DNA of 64,000 nt from Bacteroidota bacterium (GTDB taxonomy: Bacteria > Bacteroidota > Bacteroidia > Bacteroidales > UBA4417). Shown piece by piece: positions 43,399 to 53,112 of this stretch. The notes below the pieces were generated by a model. The model was not told the origin of the DNA. It did not search any database and worked only from the letters and a program-made list of their open reading frames with translations. The position numbers and the translations under genes are program-made. Every line of letters starts with the position of its first letter. Position 1 is the first letter of the stretch. The stretch is from contig JAKLFM010000011.1 in assembly GCA_022711175.1 (NCBI GenBank), forward strand, positions 1-64,000. The letters run 5' to 3'.

Positions 43399-44739
43399 AT
43401 GGCTGAAACTAAAAGAATCAAAAAGGGCCTCAATATCAACCTGTTAGGGGAGGCTCAAAAAAAGATTGCCAAAATTGAGGTTTCTGAATTTGCTCTTAAG
43501 CCAACCGATTTTAATGGTATTTTTCCGCGGTTGCTTGTTAAAGAAGGTGATCAGGTGAAGGCCGGGACATCCGTTTTCTGCGATAAGTACCGTGAACAGA
43601 TCAGATTCTCCTCTCCGGTTAGCGGTAAAATTGAAGAAATCAGGCGTGGCGACAAGCGTATTTTGCTTGAAGTCGTCATAAAAGATGATAAAGCCGGTGA
43701 TTATGAGGATTTTGGCAAAACAGATATAGCCTCTGCCGATCGGGGTAAAATCAAAGAGAACCTGCTGAAAAGTGGTGTCTGGCCTGTAATTCGCCAGCGG
43801 CCGTACAATGTCATTGCCAACCCCGACGACACACCACAGGCTGTCTTCATCTCAGGTTTTGATTCGGCACCCCTGGCGCCGGATTATGGTTTCACACTGA
43901 AAGACGATCTGGTTGATTTTCAGGCAGGTGTGAATGCAATGGCAAAGCTTACCGATGGTAAAGTCTTTATCGGAGTTCCGGCAACCGATCATCCCCTGGC
44001 AGGTGTTAAAAATGCTGAAATCACTTGTTTCGAAGGCCCGCACCCTGCCGGAAATGTAGGAATCCAGATTCATCACATACAGCCGTTGAATAAAGGCGAC
44101 CTGGTGTGGACGGTTAACCCTCAGGATGTGGTTATTATCGGGAGGCTGTTTACACAAGGTCGCTATAATCCATCGATTGCTGTTGCAGTTACCGGATCCG
44201 AAATAAAAGAACCTCAATATTATAAGGTAAATAAAGGTGCCCTGGTAAGTACTTTGTTATCTGATGAATTGAAGAATTCAGGTAAACGCATCATCAGCGG
44301 TAATGTGCTCACCGGTGAAAAAGTCAGTTATTCGGGATACCTGGGCTTTTATCATAACCAGGTTACAGTAATTCCCGAAGGCAACTACCATGAGTTTTTC
44401 GGATGGGCATTACCGGGATTCGGTAAATTCAGCTTCTCAAAAGCCTTTTTCTCCTGGGCACACGGAACAAGGAAATACCGCCTTGATACCAACCTGCACG
44501 GAGGTCTGCGCTCATATGTTATGACCGGCCAATACGAAAAAGTTCTTCCAATGGATATTCTGCCAATGCAACTTATTAAAGCATGTCTGGCTGAGGACAT
44601 TGACCTGATGGAAAAACTCGGCATCTATGAAGTTGATGAGGAAGACTTTGCGCTTGTCGAATTTATTGATACTTCAAAAACCGAAATACAATCCATCATC
44701 CGCAAAGGCATCGACCTAGTTCGCAAAGAGATGAGTTAA
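43399..44739 (+). CDS. nqrA: Na+-translocating NADH:quinone reductase subunit A
   Basis: 446 residues, full length. It is a soluble, peripheral subunit of the Na+-NQR, which oxidises NADH, reduces ubiquinone or menaquinone and exports Na+. Recognisable elements are KKGLNINLLGEAQKK at the N-terminus, a biotin/lipoyl-like fold (VKAGTSVFCDKYREQIRFSS) and the FEGPHPAGNVGIQIHHI segment. It heads the nqrABCDEF operon, with a promoter directly upstream. Confidence 0.96.
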   Translation: MAETKRIKKGLNINLLGEAQKKIAKIEVSEFALKPTDFNGIFPRLLVKEGDQVKAGTSVFCDKYREQIRFSSPVSGKIEEIRRGDKRILLEVVIKDDKAGDYEDFGKTDIASADRGKIKENLLKSGVWPVIRQRPYNVIANPDDTPQAVFISGFDSAPLAPDYGFTLKDDLVDFQAGVNAMAKLTDGKVFIGVPATDHPLAGVKNAEITCFEGPHPAGNVGIQIHHIQPLNKGDLVWTVNPQDVVIIGRLFTQGRYNPSIAVAVTGSEIKEPQYYKVNKGALVSTLLSDELKNSGKRIISGNVLTGEKVSYSGYLGFYHNQVTVIPEGNYHEFFGWALPGFGKFSFSKAFFSWAHGTRKYRLDTNLHGGLRSYVMTGQYEKVLPMDILPMQLIKACLAEDIDLMEKLGIYEVDEEDFALVEFIDTSKTEIQSIIRKGIDLVRKEMS

Positions 44740-44827: not shown

Positions 44828-45997
44828 ATGAAAGCTCTACGCAATTATCTCGACAAGATTAAACCACGGTTCCAGGAAGGAGGGAAGCTCGAAAAGTTAC
44901 ATTCCACTTTCGATGCTTTTGAAACATTCCTTTTTGTGCCCGATAAAACCACGTTTAAAGGCAGCCATATCCGCGACAGCATTGACCTGAAACGTACAAT
45001 GACGGTTGTGTTGCTGGCCTTGATGCCAGCGTTGCTATTTGGTATCTGGAACGTGGGTTATCAGCATTCGCTGGCATTTGGCAAGGATGCCGGGTTCTGG
45101 CAGATTGCAGGATTTGGCCTCATGAAAGTTTTACCCATCATTGTGGTATCATATGTATCAGGTCTTGCTGTAGAGTTTATTTTTGCTCAATACCGCAAGC
45201 ACGAAGTCAACGAAGGCTTCCTTGTTTCGGGTATGCTGATACCTTTGGTGATGCCGCCCGATATCCCTTTGTGGATGGTTGCCGTCTCAACGGTATTTGC
45301 CGTTATTCTGGGTAAGGAAGCATTCGGCGGAACAGGAATGAATGTTTTTAACCCGGCTTTACTTGCCCGGGCTTTCCTGTTTTTCGCTTACCCGGCTTCA
45401 ATGACCGGCGATACAACCTGGACAGCCGGCCTTGCCAATGGTGAAGGAATTGCCGATGGCTATTCAGGCGCCACACCTTTATCCAATGCTGCAGCCGAAC
45501 TTGTTGATAAAATACCTTCCGTTTCCGACCTGTTTTTTGGATTCATACCCGGTTCTATCGGCGAAACATCAAAGTTAGCGATAATTATTGGTGCTGTTAT
45601 TCTGATCCTTACAGGAATCGGCAGTTGGCGAATCATGCTTTCAGGATTGTTGGGTGGCGTGACCATGACGTTAATTTTCAATGCATTTGCCGCCAATAAA
45701 TACATGACCATCGATCCGCTAACACAAATTCTGATGGGCAGTTTCCTCTTCGGGATGGTTTTTATGGCTACCGACCCGGTAACTGCCGCTCAAACCAACA
45801 AAGGAAAATGGATCTACGGATTCCTTGCGGGTTTCTTCGCCATTATGGTCAGGGTGTTTAATCCCGCATACCCCGAAGGAACCATGCTGGCAATCCTGCT
45901 CATGAATACTTTTGCGCCGCTTATTGACCACTATGTTATTGAAGCCAATATCAAACGCAGGTTGAAAAGGGCAAATGCAGTTGTTAAAACGAAATAG
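44828..45997 (+). CDS. nqrB: Na+-NQR subunit B
   Basis: 389 residues, an integral membrane protein with about ten hydrophobic segments. The flavinylation motif is DGYSGATPLS, with Thr216 the expected covalent FMN acceptor. NqrB conducts electrons to riboflavin and forms the Na+ path. ApbE encoded at 49482 should attach the FMN. Slightly shorter than the Vibrio protein (about 412). It lies 88 bp after nqrA. Confidence 0.97.
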   Translation: MKALRNYLDKIKPRFQEGGKLEKLHSTFDAFETFLFVPDKTTFKGSHIRDSIDLKRTMTVVLLALMPALLFGIWNVGYQHSLAFGKDAGFWQIAGFGLMKVLPIIVVSYVSGLAVEFIFAQYRKHEVNEGFLVSGMLIPLVMPPDIPLWMVAVSTVFAVILGKEAFGGTGMNVFNPALLARAFLFFAYPASMTGDTTWTAGLANGEGIADGYSGATPLSNAAAELVDKIPSVSDLFFGFIPGSIGETSKLAIIIGAVILILTGIGSWRIMLSGLLGGVTMTLIFNAFAANKYMTIDPLTQILMGSFLFGMVFMATDPVTAAQTNKGKWIYGFLAGFFAIMVRVFNPAYPEGTMLAILLMNTFAPLIDHYVIEANIKRRLKRANAVVKTK

Positions 45998-46009: not shown

Positions 46010-46729
46010 ATGGAACATAGCAATAAATACATTTTTATCTACTCGCTGGTGATGGTTGTTTTGGTAGCAGTGGCCCTTACCATTGTTGCCGTGCAACTGA
46101 AACCGGCACAGGATAACAACATTCGCATCGAAAAAATGCAGAATATCCTGTCATCAGTTAATATTCCAATCACGGGTGTGCCGAAGGGCGATGTCATTAA
46201 TGTTTACAATAAGTACATTAAGACTGCTTTTGCGGTGAATGTTGCCGGTGAAATTTGCGAAACCGATGCCGAAAAGGTTTTTAAAATTGAAATGGCCAAT
46301 GAATTGAAAAAGGAGCCTGCACAGCAGCAACTGCCAGTGTTTGTAGCCGTGCTGGATAAAGGCGACTCGGCTTACATTGTGCCTTTGCGTGGCAAAGGGC
46401 TATGGGGCTCAATATGGGGATACATTTCCTTCAAGACCGATTACAATACCGTTGAAGGCTGTATCTTCGACCATAAAAGCGAAACACCTGGACTGGGGGC
46501 CGAAATTAACCAGGAATGGTTCCAAAAACCTCTTTTCGGTAAGAAGATATTTGATGAAAAAGGAGAATTGGTTTCAATCGGAATTATGAAGAAAGGCCAG
46601 CCTAAAAACGAAGCCCACGATGTTGATGCCATTTCCGGTGGGACAATCACCAGCAAAGGGGTTCAAAAAATGATCAAGGATAACCTGACAAGCTACCAGG
46701 CTTACTTTAAAAAGCACTTAAAATCATGA
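46010..46729 (+). CDS. nqrC: Na+-NQR subunit C
   Basis: 239 residues with one N-terminal membrane segment (about 8-30) and a periplasmic FMN-binding domain. The flavinylation motif reads DAISGGT (206-212), with Gly in place of the usual Ala before Thr212, followed by ITSKGVQ. Thr212 should carry the FMN linked by ApbE. It overlaps nqrD by 4 bp (ATGA), indicating translational coupling. Confidence 0.95.
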
Positions 46730-47388
46730 GCGACGTAAAGGTAAAGAAAGAAAAAGATCCGTGGTTTTCGCCCAAAAACCTATCGCTGCTAAAAAAGCCC
46801 TTCAATATCGAAAATCCTGTTACGGTGCAGGTGCTCGGTATATGTTCCGCGCTTGCAGTTACGGTTCAGATGAAACCCGCTATAGTTATGGCACTCAGCG
46901 TTACCATTGTAACCGCGTTTTCAAACCTCATCATTGCGCTTATCCGCGATTCCATTCCTTCACGTATTCGCATCATTGTGCAGTTGGTTGTGGTTGCAGC
47001 ATTGGTAATAATTGTTGACCAGATACTCAAGGCCTATGTGTACGACGTAAGTAAAAAGCTTTCAGTTTTTGTGGGGCTCATCATCACAAACTGTATCCTC
47101 ATGGGTCGTCTCGAGGCTTTCGCCATGGCAAATAAGCCCTGGCCTTCGTTTATCGATGGTATAGGCAATGGGTTGGGATACGGTATTATATTGGTTACTG
47201 TGGCTTTTTTCCGCGAGTTGCTCGGGTCGGGCAAATTCTATGGCATGAAAGTGATTCCTGATGCCTTTTATAAAGCCGGCTATGTTGATAACGGGCTTAT
47301 GATTCTGCCACCAATGGCACTCATGACAATCGGCATTATCATCTGGATACAACGCTGGAAGAAACCCGAACTGCAGGAAAAGAACTGA
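46726..47388 (+). CDS. nqrD: Na+-NQR subunit D
   Basis: 220 residues, six hydrophobic helices, an Nqr/Rnf membrane subunit. Conserved motifs: [41 protein letters not shown]. Together with NqrE it forms the membrane core with the intramembrane Fe-S centre. The Cys in ITNCILMGR is expected to contribute to that centre. It overlaps nqrC by 4 bp. Confidence 0.96.
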
Positions 47389-47427: not shown

Positions 47428-48045
47428 ATGGATAATTTATTCAACCTGTTTGTTCGAAGCATCTTCATCGATAATATGATTTTTGCATATTTCCTTGGGA
47501 TGTGTTCTTACCTGGCGGTGTCAAAAACAGTTAAAACCTCTCTTGGTCTGGGTGTTGCCGTCACTTTTGTATTGCTGATAACAGCACCGGTTAACTGGCT
47601 GGTTGATACATATATGCTCAAAGCCGGAGCGCTTTCGTGGCTAAGTCCCCAACTTGCCGATCTCGATCTGAGCTACCTCAGTTTCCTGATTTTTATTGCC
47701 GTTATTGCTGCCATGGTGCAGCTGGTTGAAATGGTTGTTGAGAAATTCTCACCTTCACTTTATAACGCACTCGGAATCTTTCTGCCACTCATCGCTGTTA
47801 ACTGCGCCATTCTTGGAGTTGCCCTTTTTGTGCAGGAACGCGAGTACGAAACCATTGGAGAAGTGACGGTATATGCCGTTGGTTCAGGAATTGGCTGGCT
47901 GCTTGCCATTGTTTCGCTGGCTGCCATCAGGGAAAAAATACGTTATTCAGCCGTTCCCAAACCATTAAAGGGACTAGGCATTGCTTTTATCCTCACCGGG
48001 CTTATGGCAATCGCATTTATGAGTTTTATGGGAATAAAAATCTGA
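47428..48045 (+). CDS. nqrE: Na+-NQR subunit E
   Basis: 205 residues, six hydrophobic helices. Conserved: [19 protein letters not shown] at the N-terminus, [20 protein letters not shown], and [14 protein letters not shown]. The paired Cys positions ([10 protein letters not shown] and VNCAILG) match the intramembrane Fe-S ligands described for NqrD/NqrE. It lies 39 bp after nqrD. Confidence 0.96.
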
Positions 48046-48090: not shown

Positions 48091-49362
48091 ATGATAACAA
48101 CAACAATTTTATTACTGGGAAAACTTGCCGGGCCGCTCATTATCGGTACAACGGTGTTCCTGCTTGTCACCGTTCTGCTTGTAGCAATGCTGCTCTTAGC
48201 TAAAGCTAAGCTTGCACCGTCGGGGCCGGTAAAAATTACCATCAACGGTGAAAAAGAGCTCACGGTAAATGCAGGTTCGAGTTTACTCACTACCCTCGCA
48301 AATCAGAAACTGTTCCTGCCATCGGCCTGTGGAGGCGGAGGTACTTGCGGAATGTGTAAATGCCAGGTACTCGATGGTGGCGGGACAATCCTGCCCACCG
48401 AGGTTGGTTTTTTTACCCGTAAGCAACAACTCGACAATTGGAGATTAGGTTGCCAGGTGAAAGTGCGCGAACCACTTAATATTACGATTCCTAAAGAAGT
48501 TTTCGGAATTAAGAAATGGGAATGCGAAGTGATTTCGAACCACAATGTTGCCACTTTTATTAAAGAATTTGTGGTGAAACTTCCCGAGGGCGAATCGCTC
48601 GAGTTCCAAAGCGGAGGATATATACAAATTGATGTACCCAAAATCGAAGTGGATTTCAAAACCATGGATGTTGAGCCTGAATACCGCGAAGATTGGGATA
48701 AACTCAAAATCTGGGACCTTAAGATGAAGAATCCTGAAGAGATATTCAGGGCTTATTCAATGGCTAATCACCCTGCTGAAGGTAATATTATTAAGCTTAA
48801 TATTCGTATCGCCACGCCGCCATGGGACAGGGCCAAAAACCAGTTTATGAATGTTAATCCCGGTATTTGTTCTTCATATATATTCTCGCGCAAACCCGGC
48901 GATAAAGTAACGATAAGCGGCCCGTACGGTGAGTTTCATATAAAACCCACCAAAAAGGAAATGGTATTCATTGGTGGCGGGGCTGGAATGGCGCCACTCC
49001 GCTCTATGATTTTCCACCTGTTTCAAACCGAGCATACCGACAGGCAGGTGAGTTTCTGGTACGGGGCAAGGTCGTTGCGCGAAACATTTTATGATGACGA
49101 ATTCAAGGCTATCCAGGATAAAAATCCGAATTTCAGTTTTAACCTGGCACTTAGTGAACCACTGCCCGAAGACAATTGGAAAGGCTATACCGGATTTATT
49201 CACCAGGTTGTACTCGATAAATACCTGAGTAACCATCCCGAACCCGAAGAGATCGAATACTATCTTTGCGGACCGCCGATGATGAATACGGCTGTGTTTA
49301 AAATGCTCGACAATCTGGGTGTGCCTCCCGAAAATATCGCATTCGACGATTTCGGAGGTTAA
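48091..49362 (+). CDS. nqrF: Na+-NQR subunit F (NADH dehydrogenase)
   Basis: 423 residues. One N-terminal membrane anchor (about 5-36), a 2Fe-2S ferredoxin domain with Cys80, Cys86, Cys89 and Cys121 (SACGGGGTCGMC and LGCQVKV), then FAD and NADH domains. FAD-binding motif RAYSMANHP; NADH motif GGGAGMAPLRSM; C-terminal CGPPMMNTAV. It feeds NADH electrons into the complex. A strong terminator at 49373-49401 ends the operon after this gene. Confidence 0.97.
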   Translation: MITTTILLLGKLAGPLIIGTTVFLLVTVLLVAMLLLAKAKLAPSGPVKITINGEKELTVNAGSSLLTTLANQKLFLPSACGGGGTCGMCKCQVLDGGGTILPTEVGFFTRKQQLDNWRLGCQVKVREPLNITIPKEVFGIKKWECEVISNHNVATFIKEFVVKLPEGESLEFQSGGYIQIDVPKIEVDFKTMDVEPEYREDWDKLKIWDLKMKNPEEIFRAYSMANHPAEGNIIKLNIRIATPPWDRAKNQFMNVNPGICSSYIFSRKPGDKVTISGPYGEFHIKPTKKEMVFIGGGAGMAPLRSMIFHLFQTEHTDRQVSFWYGARSLRETFYDDEFKAIQDKNPNFSFNLALSEPLPEDNWKGYTGFIHQVVLDKYLSNHPEPEEIEYYLCGPPMMNTAVFKMLDNLGVPPENIAFDDFGG

Positions 49363-49481: not shown

Positions 49482-50501
49482 ATGTTACCATTCAGGCACT
49501 TGCTGATTACCTTCTGCTGCATATATGCAACGATTCTGATAGTTGGATGTTCCGGGAAACCTGTTATGGTAAAATTCTCGGGCGAAACCCAGGGAACCTA
49601 TTATGCCATCACATACTTCGAAAAAAAGGCAAGTAACTACCAACAGCAGATTGACTCTCTTTTGCACCGTTTTGATTCATCGGCGTCGCTCTGGAAACCA
49701 AATTCATTGCTTTCAAAAATTAATAACAATGATTCAACCGCAAGAACGGATGAAACATTGGAAATCCTCTTCAGGAAATCGATGGAGATTTCGGAGCAAA
49801 GCAACGGCGCGTTTGATATCACAGTTGGGCCTTTGGTTTCAGCCTGGGGGTTTGGTTTTTCCGATCGGTTGAAAGTTGATAAACATATTGTTGACAGCCT
49901 GCTGCCATTGGTCAACTATAAGCATCTCACCCTCACAAACGGCAGAATTTTGAAACAGGATAACCGCATGAGGCTCGATTTTAACGCCATAGCACAAGGC
50001 TATGCGGTTGACCTTGTTGCACAGTTTCTTGAATCAAAAAAAATTAAATCATACCTTGTTGATATTGGAGGAGAAGTACTGGCAAAAGGTACAAAGCCTG
50101 ATAAAACAGAGTGGAGCGTGGGAATTGAATTGCCTGCTGCCAGTGCTGATGATGAGCGCCAAGTGAAAGCAATTGTTTCACTCCACGATAAAGCTCTCTC
50201 AACATCGGGAAATTACAGGAAATATTACGAGGAAAATGGTGTGCGTTACTCTCATACTATTGACCCGTCCACAGGCTACCCGGTAAAGCATTCTGTGTTA
50301 AGTGTATCGGTGCTTGCTTCGGATTGCATGACTGCCGATGCATGTGCTACGGTCATGATGGTCAAAGGTCTTGAAAACTCTAAACCTTTCCTTGCCGCTC
50401 ATCCCGGGCTTGAAGCCTATTTTATTTATTCGGATTCAACAGGGGCAATGCAAACATGGTACACGCCCGGATTTGGAAAACTTATCAAGGAAGAGTTATA
50501 A
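49482..50501 (+). CDS. apbE: FAD:protein FMN transferase (flavinyltransferase)
   Basis: 339 residues. A lipoprotein signal ends ILIVGCSGKP, so it is exported to the periplasmic side. ApbE motifs: FSGETQGTYYAITYF, DITVGPLVSAWGFG, LVDIGGEVLAKGTKPD and the near-invariant YSHTIDPSTGYPV. It covalently attaches FMN to Thr in NqrB and NqrC. Its place after nqrF fits. The separate terminator upstream suggests its own or partial readthrough transcription. Its stop overlaps the A-run of the next terminator. Confidence 0.96.
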   Translation: MLPFRHLLITFCCIYATILIVGCSGKPVMVKFSGETQGTYYAITYFEKKASNYQQQIDSLLHRFDSSASLWKPNSLLSKINNNDSTARTDETLEILFRKSMEISEQSNGAFDITVGPLVSAWGFGFSDRLKVDKHIVDSLLPLVNYKHLTLTNGRILKQDNRMRLDFNAIAQGYAVDLVAQFLESKKIKSYLVDIGGEVLAKGTKPDKTEWSVGIELPAASADDERQVKAIVSLHDKALSTSGNYRKYYEENGVRYSHTIDPSTGYPVKHSVLSVSVLASDCMTADACATVMMVKGLENSKPFLAAHPGLEAYFIYSDSTGAMQTWYTPGFGKLIKEEL

Positions 50502-50526
50502 AAAAAATCCCGGACGGTGCCGGGAT
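50501..50526. terminator. Bidirectional terminator between apbE and the nqrM-like gene
   Basis: Arms ATCCCGG (50507-50513) and CCGGGAT (50520-50526) are preceded on the plus strand by a run of seven A. Read on the minus strand this is a hairpin followed by seven T, ending the NqrM-like gene. It may also stop apbE. Confidence 0.85.
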
Positions 50527-50547: not shown

Positions 50548-50733
50548 TCAGCTGTTGTTACAGGTGCTATCAGCGCTACCGCCACACGAACAGTCCATGG
50601 CTTTGCCCGTTTTGGGGTCAACACTGCTGCACGACTTCCTGAATTGGCCGTCACGTATAAAAAACATCCTGATTGCTATTCCGGCAAAAGCAATTCCTAT
50701 GAGTATTGTAGCAACTAAGATGAGTTTGAGCAT
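50548..50733 (-). CDS. nqrM: NqrM-like small membrane protein
   Basis: 61 residues: one transmembrane helix (about 3-24) followed by a short Cys-rich tail. Cys at 35, 48, 50 and 58, in RKSCSSVDPKTGKAMDCSCGG. This resembles NqrM (DUF539), the Na+-NQR maturation factor of about 60-85 residues, in which a membrane helix precedes a conserved Cys and a C-x-C tail and which is needed to assemble the Fe-S centre between NqrD and NqrE. The gene lies convergent to apbE, right beside the nqr operon, and 23 bp after the multi-domain DNA-binding gene. A shared terminator follows. Assignment is by pattern and context; the N-terminal tail differs in length from Vibrio NqrM. Confidence 0.7.
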   Translation of the reverse strand: MLKLILVATILIGIAFAGIAIRMFFIRDGQFRKSCSSVDPKTGKAMDCSCGGSADSTCNNS

Positions 50734-50756: not shown

Positions 50757-52274
50757 TTATTGGCTGCCTTTGGGTTTACGTCCGCGTCCGCCTTTGTCAT
50801 TACCCGCCGGTAAATTATTGTATTGTTTGTATTTCAGTCCGATATAGCTCTTTCTGAAAAAGATGAAAGTATTGGTCTTGTCTAATTTCAGGTTCGATAA
50901 AATATTTTTATCGGAGGTATTTCGGAACTTACATACATAAACAGTAATATCGCTGATATGTTTAGGTTCCTCTGAGGCTTCGAGAAATTCTTTTACAAGT
51001 TCCTTGATAGTGCCGGTTTTTACGGTCTGCCATTTTTTGAGTGCATAGGTGCTTGTTTTTCCAATAGCAACCACTTCTTCGATACTGAGAATGGATGAGC
51101 GCAGCGATTCAATGTTCGGCGGGATGCGTGTTGTGCGCATCTTAAGCTCTTTGCATATTTCTGTCAGTTTCATCGGGTGGCCCACATCTTCGAGAATCTT
51201 GAGGATATGCTCCGACAGTTTTATGAGGGTGTTGCGGTTGAAAGTAATGGTTGTTTTATCAAATCCCAACCCGAATTCTTCCATAGCCATACGGCGGCAA
51301 ATTTGTTTCAACCTGTCGTTGGTGGTTTGATGCGGGGATACGAACTTATTCAGAAAATCCTGTGCGTCAATCTGGTATGATTTCTCGATACGTTTCTCTT
51401 TTATCGTTTCAATGGCTGTAAAGTACTTCCTGAAGTCGAAGATTTCCTTGTACTTGCGGCTCACCAGGTAGTAATAGTTGTAATTGTTTTCCATATCCTG
51501 AAAAGCCATATAATAACGCTGGAAAGTACCTGCAAAAACAAGCCCGTAGAACTTGCCGGTAAACGATACACCTTCAAGTTTATTGATTTTGCTTACCAAA
51601 TCATCATCAATCACCAGCAGTTCTTTTTTCAGATCGAGGTTGTAATCAAAGTGTTTTTCAATCGTGATAAAGCGCTGGGCGATTTTGTTGACAATGCTTT
51701 CAAGCTTTTCAGGTATTTTTTGGGCAATTTGCCGGACTCTTTCGCGGGTGATCCCATATTGGTCGCCTATGGATTGGAGGGTCCGTTTTTGCGAATCGTT
51801 AAAAAAACCGAAGTTATTCATGAATATATACTGTTCGCGTTCGTTCAGTACATAGCCGATGAGGGTTTTCAGGTATTTGAAAAACGGAAAGTGTTTATTG
51901 ATAAAGAGTTCTTTATAGTTTTCGGTGACTTCAGAAGGTACTTTGAAGTTAACGTAGCAGAAGAGTTTAAAATCTTCGAAGCCCAGCAGGGGTTCATTCA
52001 TTCGAAGGCTATCGAGCGTAAGACCCGAAATATCGAGATATTTCTGCGAAAGCCCGATGAGTTCCAGGTCGGTTTTTAATCCACAGTTCCTGATGTCGCG
52101 AAACGTACCACGTTCGAGGTAGTAATACAGGATTTTATAAAGCGTGTCGAGTGACCCTTCGAGGCATACATTTTTTGTACGCTCCGAGAGGTTGTTGATT
52201 TTCTTCAGTTCCTCAATGTGGTAATTAATGAGGTTGGATAAAGGTGCCACGGCTTTTTGATTTTGGTTTGACAA
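50757..52274 (-). CDS. Multi-domain DNA-binding protein (alpha-CTD-like, sigma-4-like HTH, HARE-like wings, AT-hook)
   Basis: About 505 residues with a TTG start at 52274. Four kinds of DNA-binding segment can be proposed. Residues about 25-80 (ERTKNVCLEGSLDTLYKILY ... RDIRNCGLKTDLELIGLSQ) resemble the helix-hairpin-helix of the RNA polymerase alpha C-terminal domain. Residues about 163-190 (TLQSIGDQYGITRERVRQIA) match the sigma-70 region 4 HTH. Residues about 355-415 and 420-480 resemble two HARE-HTH-like winged helices (KLTEICKELKM; STYALKKW). The C-terminus is basic, with an AT-hook-like GRGRKPKG (497-503). The middle (210-340) is unassigned. It is probably a nucleoid or transcription-associated protein. 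Function is unknown. The NqrM-like gene follows 23 bp downstream, probably on the same transcript. Confidence 0.75.
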   Translation of the reverse strand: MSNQNQKAVAPLSNLINYHIEELKKINNLSERTKNVCLEGSLDTLYKILYYYLERGTFRDIRNCGLKTDLELIGLSQKYLDISGLTLDSLRMNEPLLGFEDFKLFCYVNFKVPSEVTENYKELFINKHFPFFKYLKTLIGYVLNEREQYIFMNNFGFFNDSQKRTLQSIGDQYGITRERVRQIAQKIPEKLESIVNKIAQRFITIEKHFDYNLDLKKELLVIDDDLVSKINKLEGVSFTGKFYGLVFAGTFQRYYMAFQDMENNYNYYYLVSRKYKEIFDFRKYFTAIETIKEKRIEKSYQIDAQDFLNKFVSPHQTTNDRLKQICRRMAMEEFGLGFDKTTITFNRNTLIKLSEHILKILEDVGHPMKLTEICKELKMRTTRIPPNIESLRSSILSIEEVVAIGKTSTYALKKWQTVKTGTIKELVKEFLEASEEPKHISDITVYVCKFRNTSDKNILSNLKLDKTNTFIFFRKSYIGLKYKQYNNLPAGNDKGGRGRKPKGSQ

Positions 52275-52326: not shown

Positions 52327-53112
52327 TCAGACAAGTTTTTTTTCTGAAAGCTGTTTGCTGATTTCATAGCATATAATTGCATTTGCTATTGATGCATTCA
52401 GCGACTCGGGCGGCTTAAGTACTTCATCCTGACCAAATGAAGGGATATTAACAGTATGTGTAACAAGTTGTTTCACCCCGACCGATATGCCATGCGATTC
52501 GCTGCCGATGACAACGATTCCGTTATGACTGAAGGTTATCTCATGAAGTTTCGTTCCGTTTAGCAATGCACCATAAACAGGTGTGTCTTTTGGTTTTCGA
52601 TTTATGAATTGTATTAAACCTGTTTTGAAAACCCTGATTCGTGCAAATGAACCCATGCTGGCCTGTACAACTTTTGGATTGAATGGATCCACGCACTCTT
52701 CGGAGCAAACGAGTTGCCGAATGCCGAACCAGTCGGCTGTACGCATTATTGTTCCCATGTTGCCGGGGTCCTTGATATCATCAAGTGCAAGAATGTATTC
52801 GCTGAAATCGATGGATGAGATATCCCGATGAGGTATTTCTGCAATGGCAATCACCTTGTTTGGGGTAACCAGGTCACTTATTCTGCCGAGTTCTGCGGTT
52901 GATATTTCAGTAACGCCGGCTGAGCTTTTGGTTATCATCGGCAAATTCTCATCAATCCATTCAGGTAATGCAAAAACAGCTTTGACCGTTAAATTGCTGT
53001 TCAGTAATTCATCCACACATTTGTCGCCTTCGACAATGAAAACACCGTGTTCCTGGCGGAATTTCTTGATTTTAAGAGAATTGATGTATTTGACCTGGTT
53101 CTTTGAGAGCAT
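52327..53112 (-). CDS. TrmH/SpoU-family RNA 2'-O-methyltransferase
   Basis: 261 residues. An N-terminal substrate-binding domain (SKNQVKYINSLKIKKFRQE; EGDKCVDELL) precedes a SPOUT knot. The family motifs LDDIKDPGNMGTIMRTADW, VVIGSESHGIS and the C-terminal PPESLNASIANAII are all present. It methylates ribose in tRNA or rRNA. The exact target is not known. It starts right after the rplI terminator, so it may depend on readthrough or its own promoter. It lies 52 bp from the next gene. Confidence 0.9.
   Translation of the reverse strand: MLSKNQVKYINSLKIKKFRQEHGVFIVEGDKCVDELLNSNLTVKAVFALPEWIDENLPMITKSSAGVTEISTAELGRISDLVTPNKVIAIAEIPHRDISSIDFSEYILALDDIKDPGNMGTIMRTADWFGIRQLVCSEECVDPFNPKVVQASMGSFARIRVFKTGLIQFINRKPKDTPVYGALLNGTKLHEITFSHNGIVVIGSESHGISVGVKQLVTHTVNIPSFGQDEVLKPPESLNASIANAIICYEISKQLSEKKLV

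Follow-up and report, generated by a model that had tools for sequence, protein, structure and literature searches.

We identified a short gene at the nqr-apbE cluster of a Bacteroidota genome, and judging from its position and its inheritance together with Na+-NQR the product is most likely the previously unrecognised NqrM counterpart of this phylum, divergent from the NqrM family PF04400. We put at roughly 0.82 the probability that this protein is the Bacteroidota NqrM, whose four thiols would take up iron or an Fe-S unit and deliver it to the NqrD/E site. A literature search found no Bacteroidota NqrM, nor did we come across any protein of this phylum annotated as an assembly factor for the NqrD/E iron centre. 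The window, that is, the whole stretch of 64,000 nucleotides analysed here, contains the cluster on the forward strand as follows.

43399-44739, (+) strand: nqrA (TIGR01936)
44828-45997, (+) strand: nqrB (TIGR01937)
46010-46729, (+) strand: nqrC (TIGR01938)
46726-47388, (+) strand: nqrD, with Cys40 and Cys123 in motifs matching iron ligands (TIGR01939)
47428-48045, (+) strand: nqrE, with Cys26 and Cys126 in motifs matching iron ligands (TIGR01940)
48091-49362, (+) strand: nqrF (TIGR01941, 624 bits)
49482-50501, (+) strand: apbE, encoding the flavin transferase that is the other known NQR maturation factor (PF02424, 290 bits)

The cluster was complete, since nqrA to nqrF all scored above the TIGRFAM equivalog cut-offs and apbE matched PF02424. 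The iron-ligand cysteines of NQR are described in PMC10739449. The candidate gene and its neighbours are encoded on the opposite strand.

50507-50526, (-) strand: terminator-like hairpin and T-run, read from 50526 to 50507 on the candidate's own strand, just 3' of its stop
50548-50733, (-) strand: candidate Bacteroidota NqrM, 61 residues, ATG start (translated open reading frame, relatives and alignment)
50551-50658, (-) strand: Cys tail, with Cys35 at 50629-50631, Cys48 at 50590-50592, Cys50 at 50584-50586 and Cys58 at 50560-50562
50659-50730, (-) strand: N-terminal transmembrane helix, residues 2-25 (AlphaFold, pLDDT about 96)
50757-52274, (-) strand: sigma-70 region-4-containing protein (PF04545)
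52327-53112, (-) strand: SpoU-family rRNA methyltransferase (PF00588)
Beyond the methyltransferase gene, upstream of the candidate: rplI and rpsF, named by sequence reading

The open reading frame at 50548-50733 (-) was translated as MLKLILVATILIGIAFAGIAIRMFFIRDGQFRKSCSSVDPKTGKAMDCSCGGSADSTCNNS followed by the stop, with cysteines at positions 35, 48, 50 and 58. AlphaFold predicted residues 2-25 to be helical and the tail to be unstructured. Thus, the 61-residue protein with one helix and these four cysteines that had been proposed from the letters alone (hereafter the sequence-only reading) was confirmed, as was its placement convergent to the apbE end of the cluster; 46 nt separate it from apbE. 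The basic residues R22, R27, R32 and K33 lie on the C-terminal side of the helix, suggesting that the tail is probably cytoplasmic. The protein was encoded in a single copy in the genome of the window.

The sigma-70 region-4 gene precedes the candidate on the same strand with a gap of 23 nt, and the two are possibly co-transcribed. Its product has 505 residues, with region 4 in the N-terminal half. A sigma-like gene was kept beside the candidate in several relatives (L001, L002, L003 and L019), and in other relatives there was none between the SpoU methyltransferase gene and the candidate. In many relatives, the nearest upstream neighbour of the candidate was the methyltransferase gene.

The candidate is a real, conserved gene. 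It is short and lies on the strand opposite to nqr, so that a chance open reading frame might be considered; the probability of this is virtually nil in view of its relatives, its invariant cysteines, its third-position bias and its own terminator. A tblastn genome scan found 29 relatives, all in Bacteroidota records. In the 28-sequence alignment of the family, F31, C35, S37, C48, C50 and C58 were invariant, and the four cysteines were also invariant across 29 diverse family sequences. Comparison with the nearest relative showed 11, 7 and 29 differences at the first, second and third codon positions, respectively; 22 of the codon changes were synonymous and 13 nonsynonymous.

Subsequently, the distribution of the family was examined in a sample of 296 genomes of the phylum Bacteroidota, all with a completeness of 90% or more. 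Of these genomes, 45 matched the family profile, and 55 had nqrF above the cut-off. All 45 family-bearing genomes carried nqrF, and none of the 241 nqrF-less genomes carried the family (Fisher 7e-44), so that the co-occurrence with Na+-NQR put forward by the sequence-only reading as a check was observed in this sample. Ten nqrF genomes were without the family. Eight of them belong to the family f17, whose genomes had unusually high NqrF scores, and the others were G264 and G167. No protein with a helix and cysteines was found in the 6 kb examined in G264, and the nqrF match of G167 lies in a frame of 779 residues and covers only positions 129-403 of the profile. When an expanded profile was used on 148 Bacteroidales genomes, all 39 genomes with strong hits carried nqrF (Fisher 1.5e-4); several Bacteroidales with nqr showed no detectable relative of the candidate.

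The gene was also linked to the cluster by position. Either apbE or nqrF abutted it in 22 of the first 29 relatives. A wider set of loci contained 54 entries, some of them repeat views of one genome, in which it was convergent to apbE within 600 bp. In three entries (L018 and L031/L087) it followed apbE on the same strand, which is the proteobacterial order. Since apbE is the closest neighbour, and at some loci (L022) apbE was in view and nqr was not, the protein might serve ApbE and flavinylation generally, or RNF, instead of inserting iron into NQR. We consider this improbable. In many genomes of the family f6 the gene was apart from nqr and apbE, yet it was present only with nqrF, and four thiols would suit metal handling better than flavin transfer. 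Furthermore, none of 11 Bacteroidales that have rnfC and lack nqrF gave a strong hit; two of them carried only relatives of the B/C type described below. These results indicate that the family follows NQR rather than RNF, and RNF was accordingly rejected as the partner. RNF was scored in the Bacteroidales sample only, and by rnfC because an RnfB search at E 1e-40 was too strict and uninformative.

The candidate and its 28 aligned proteins did not match PF04400 at the Pfam gathering cut-off of 22 bits, nor was any relevant NCBIfam match found for them. PF04400 matched nothing in the genome of the window and nothing in the 296 Bacteroidota genomes. As positive controls, Aeromonas NqrM scored 84.4-84.7 bits and Ruegeria NqrM 30.3 bits. 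Because the model recognises Aeromonas NqrM, its absence from Bacteroidota is meaningful at that sensitivity; the match to the DUF539/NqrM profile suggested by the sequence-only reading was thus not obtained although the control worked, and a standard profile search would not have recovered the NqrM reading.

Matches to two other families of small proteins were weak. FixS (PF03597) matched residues 5-31 of the candidate at 12.1 bits (E 0.17), below its cut-off of 23.1 bits. FeoB_associated (PF12669, cut-off 27 bits) did not match the candidate and reached only E 3.2 with the best relative. Both identities were rejected as sub-threshold. That the candidate is another small metal-handling membrane protein of one of these kinds, adjacent to nqr by chance, is very improbable, as the scores are far below the cut-offs, its linkage to nqr persists throughout the phylum sample, and neither oxidase nor feo genes were recognised in its immediate vicinity.

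We then compared the family with eight true NqrMs, from Aeromonas, Proteus, Providencia, Enterobacter, Neisseria, Klebsiella, Ruegeria and Tritonibacter, four of which are annotated nqrM in their records. An NqrM-like query served only as bait in the plasmid search, and the sequences analysed were the real records to which it led. Profile-profile comparison with the eight NqrMs gave a probability of 91.3% (E 9.7e-7) for the narrow family and 95.8% (E 7.8e-9) for the expanded family. In the joint alignment, C35, C48, C50 and C58 of the candidate fell on C33, C45, C47 and C51 of NqrM, and the fourth cysteine was out of register only in an alphaproteobacterial sequence. The first cysteine of V. 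harveyi NqrM, Cys33, is reportedly the essential one, and we take Cys35 to be its counterpart. When 18,559 frames were searched, the Bacteroidota HMM reached Proteus NqrM at E 4e-4, and in the NqrM HMM search of the same frames the candidate family and the f17 family ranked directly after the true NqrMs. Taken together, these findings suggest that the candidate family and proteobacterial NqrM probably share ancestry. Against this, when the NqrM model was run over 99 whole Bacteroidales genomes, the top match was a family member only at E 0.0013, and two more members were among the top eight, the rest being mostly noise.

The shuffled controls showed where this similarity lies. Profiles with shuffled tail columns equalled the real score in 35 of 200 trials for the narrow family and in 5 of 200 for the expanded family, and a tail-only comparison with NqrM was not significant; shuffles of the transmembrane columns only never equalled the real score (0/200). 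The helix therefore supplies most of the profile score. We considered that the family might be a non-homologous functional replacement that does the job of NqrM and whose helix-plus-four-Cys design arose independently in Bacteroidota. The non-significant similarity of the tail alone and the position of the family below the Pfam threshold for PF04400 are in line with this, as is the different cysteine arrangement (CCGGGxC...C) found at the same spot in f17 genomes. However, the four cysteines align in order with similar spacing, the Bacteroidota HMM matches Proteus NqrM, no transmembrane shuffle reached the real score of the comparison with its probability of 96, and the f17 proteins also resemble NqrM. 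An independent origin is accordingly the less likely explanation, with a minor share of the probability, and divergence from a common NqrM ancestor is preferred. As for the NqrM identity assigned by the sequence-only reading, the co-occurrence and the Cys register speak for it and the functional reading is supported by genomics, whereas the protein stands outside PF04400 and the homology is probable only.

All eight f17 NQR genomes lacking the candidate family encoded another protein with a helix and cysteines directly after apbE on the same strand. These f17 CCGGGxC...C proteins were found at the following loci.

L060: 3817-4044, (+) strand
L061: 231-446, (-) strand
L062, L063, L064 and L066
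L202: 1000-1230, (+) strand
L203: 3344-3562, (-) strand

They had no significant Pfam match and resembled NqrM by profile with a probability of 95.

In many Bacteroidales with nqr, the only relatives were those with altered or fewer cysteines. The A'' type has GGSC...CGCG..C, which is near the NqrM layout, and the B/C types have GKFPxTxVGHNxEMRKxGIxC... with one to several cysteines. The B/C types were convergent to apbE in several genomes. We rejected the assumption that all weak Bacteroidales hits are the same protein, since inspection showed many of them to be of the B/C type. Tandem pairs of an A'' type and a B/C type were observed at L162, L163, L164, L165, L166, L146 and L198, in which the B/C member had lost the first cysteine and its motif was rewritten (GKFPxTxVGHNxEMRKxGIxC). 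C-type proteins with one tail cysteine were observed at L126:3319-3672 (-), L128:1682-1915 (+) and L125:1359-1568 (-), one of them convergent to apbE. In the members of the candidate family at L101, L106 and L108 (G363, G343 and G338, respectively), one TAA was present inside the matched frame; it probably represents the stop codon of the gene itself, falling within the end of the model.

Two genomes, G402 and G330, had neither nqrF nor rnfC, yet carried divergent four-Cys copies. In G402, which belongs to the genus of the window, the copy was about 30% identical and the neighbouring sigma-like gene 76% identical, and the copy occupies the very place from which the nqr-apbE block is missing. 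At the fast-diverging same-genus copy L122:1374-1559 (-), whose genome has neither nqrF nor rnfC, the nqr-apbE block was absent between the T9SS-plug-like and the sigma-like genes. The copies in G402 and G330 look like relic genes drifting after the loss of NQR. The sequence-only reading had named a missing NqrM profile match and homologues in genomes without Na+-NQR as evidence against itself; the match to PF04400 was indeed missing, and two genomes without NQR had these divergent copies.

In V. cholerae, NqrM has been reported to be necessary for the NqrD/E iron centre (PMC12174285), and ApbE for the attachment of flavin (PMC6209661). We propose that the candidate, a small protein of the inner membrane, consists of one helix and a Cys-rich, probably cytoplasmic tail, and that it would be needed for NQR. 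The four tail thiols may bind iron or an Fe-S unit, which would be handed over, while Na+-NQR is assembled, to the site that four cysteines form between NqrD and NqrE. A membrane-tethered four-thiol tail beside the NqrD/E site fits such a delivery.

Na+-NQR is one of the main enzymes by which Bacteroidota of the gut, mouth and rumen conserve energy. The candidate family offers a concrete gene for deletion or co-expression and may permit heterologous production of Bacteroidota NQR, and the natural variation of its Cys motif is a means to ask which thiols matter. We tentatively raise the broader possibility, on balance doubtful, that all NQR lineages use a helix-plus-Cys assembly protein beside apbE, in at least three versions (PF04400, the Bacteroidia family of the candidate and the f17 CCGGGxC family), which was duplicated and whose Cys motif was rewritten or largely lost in many Bacteroidales. 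If this is true, the iron-insertion chemistry of NQR was re-engineered within one phylum. An origin of Na+-NQR within Bacteroidota has been proposed (PMC12174285).

Among known proteins, the FeoB-associated family PF12669 likewise consists of small single-helix Cys proteins, but is linked by name to FeoB and not to NQR. FixS/CcoS (PF03597) is also a small single-helix maturation protein, but the candidate was not recognised beside oxidase genes. The f17 proteins share with the candidate a helix and a Cys tail beside the apbE of nqr, whereas their Cys layout is CC-x(4)-C...C and no significant similarity extends beyond the helix. NqrM of Proteobacteria (PF04400) has, like the candidate, one N-terminal helix followed by a basic stretch, the Cys order C-x(11-12)-C-x-C-x(n)-C and a gene that adjoins apbE or nqrF in the nqr cluster. 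Unlike NqrM, the candidate scores below the PF04400 model and is without the C-terminal Arg/Lys-rich extension. The sequence-only reading was mistaken in describing its tail as longer than in Vibrio: with Aeromonas NqrM as the comparison used, the candidate has 61 residues versus 74, and only the spacing from CxC to the last cysteine is longer, at 7 residues versus 3. Finally, the candidate gene is usually convergent to apbE, whereas proteobacterial nqrM is co-directional with it.
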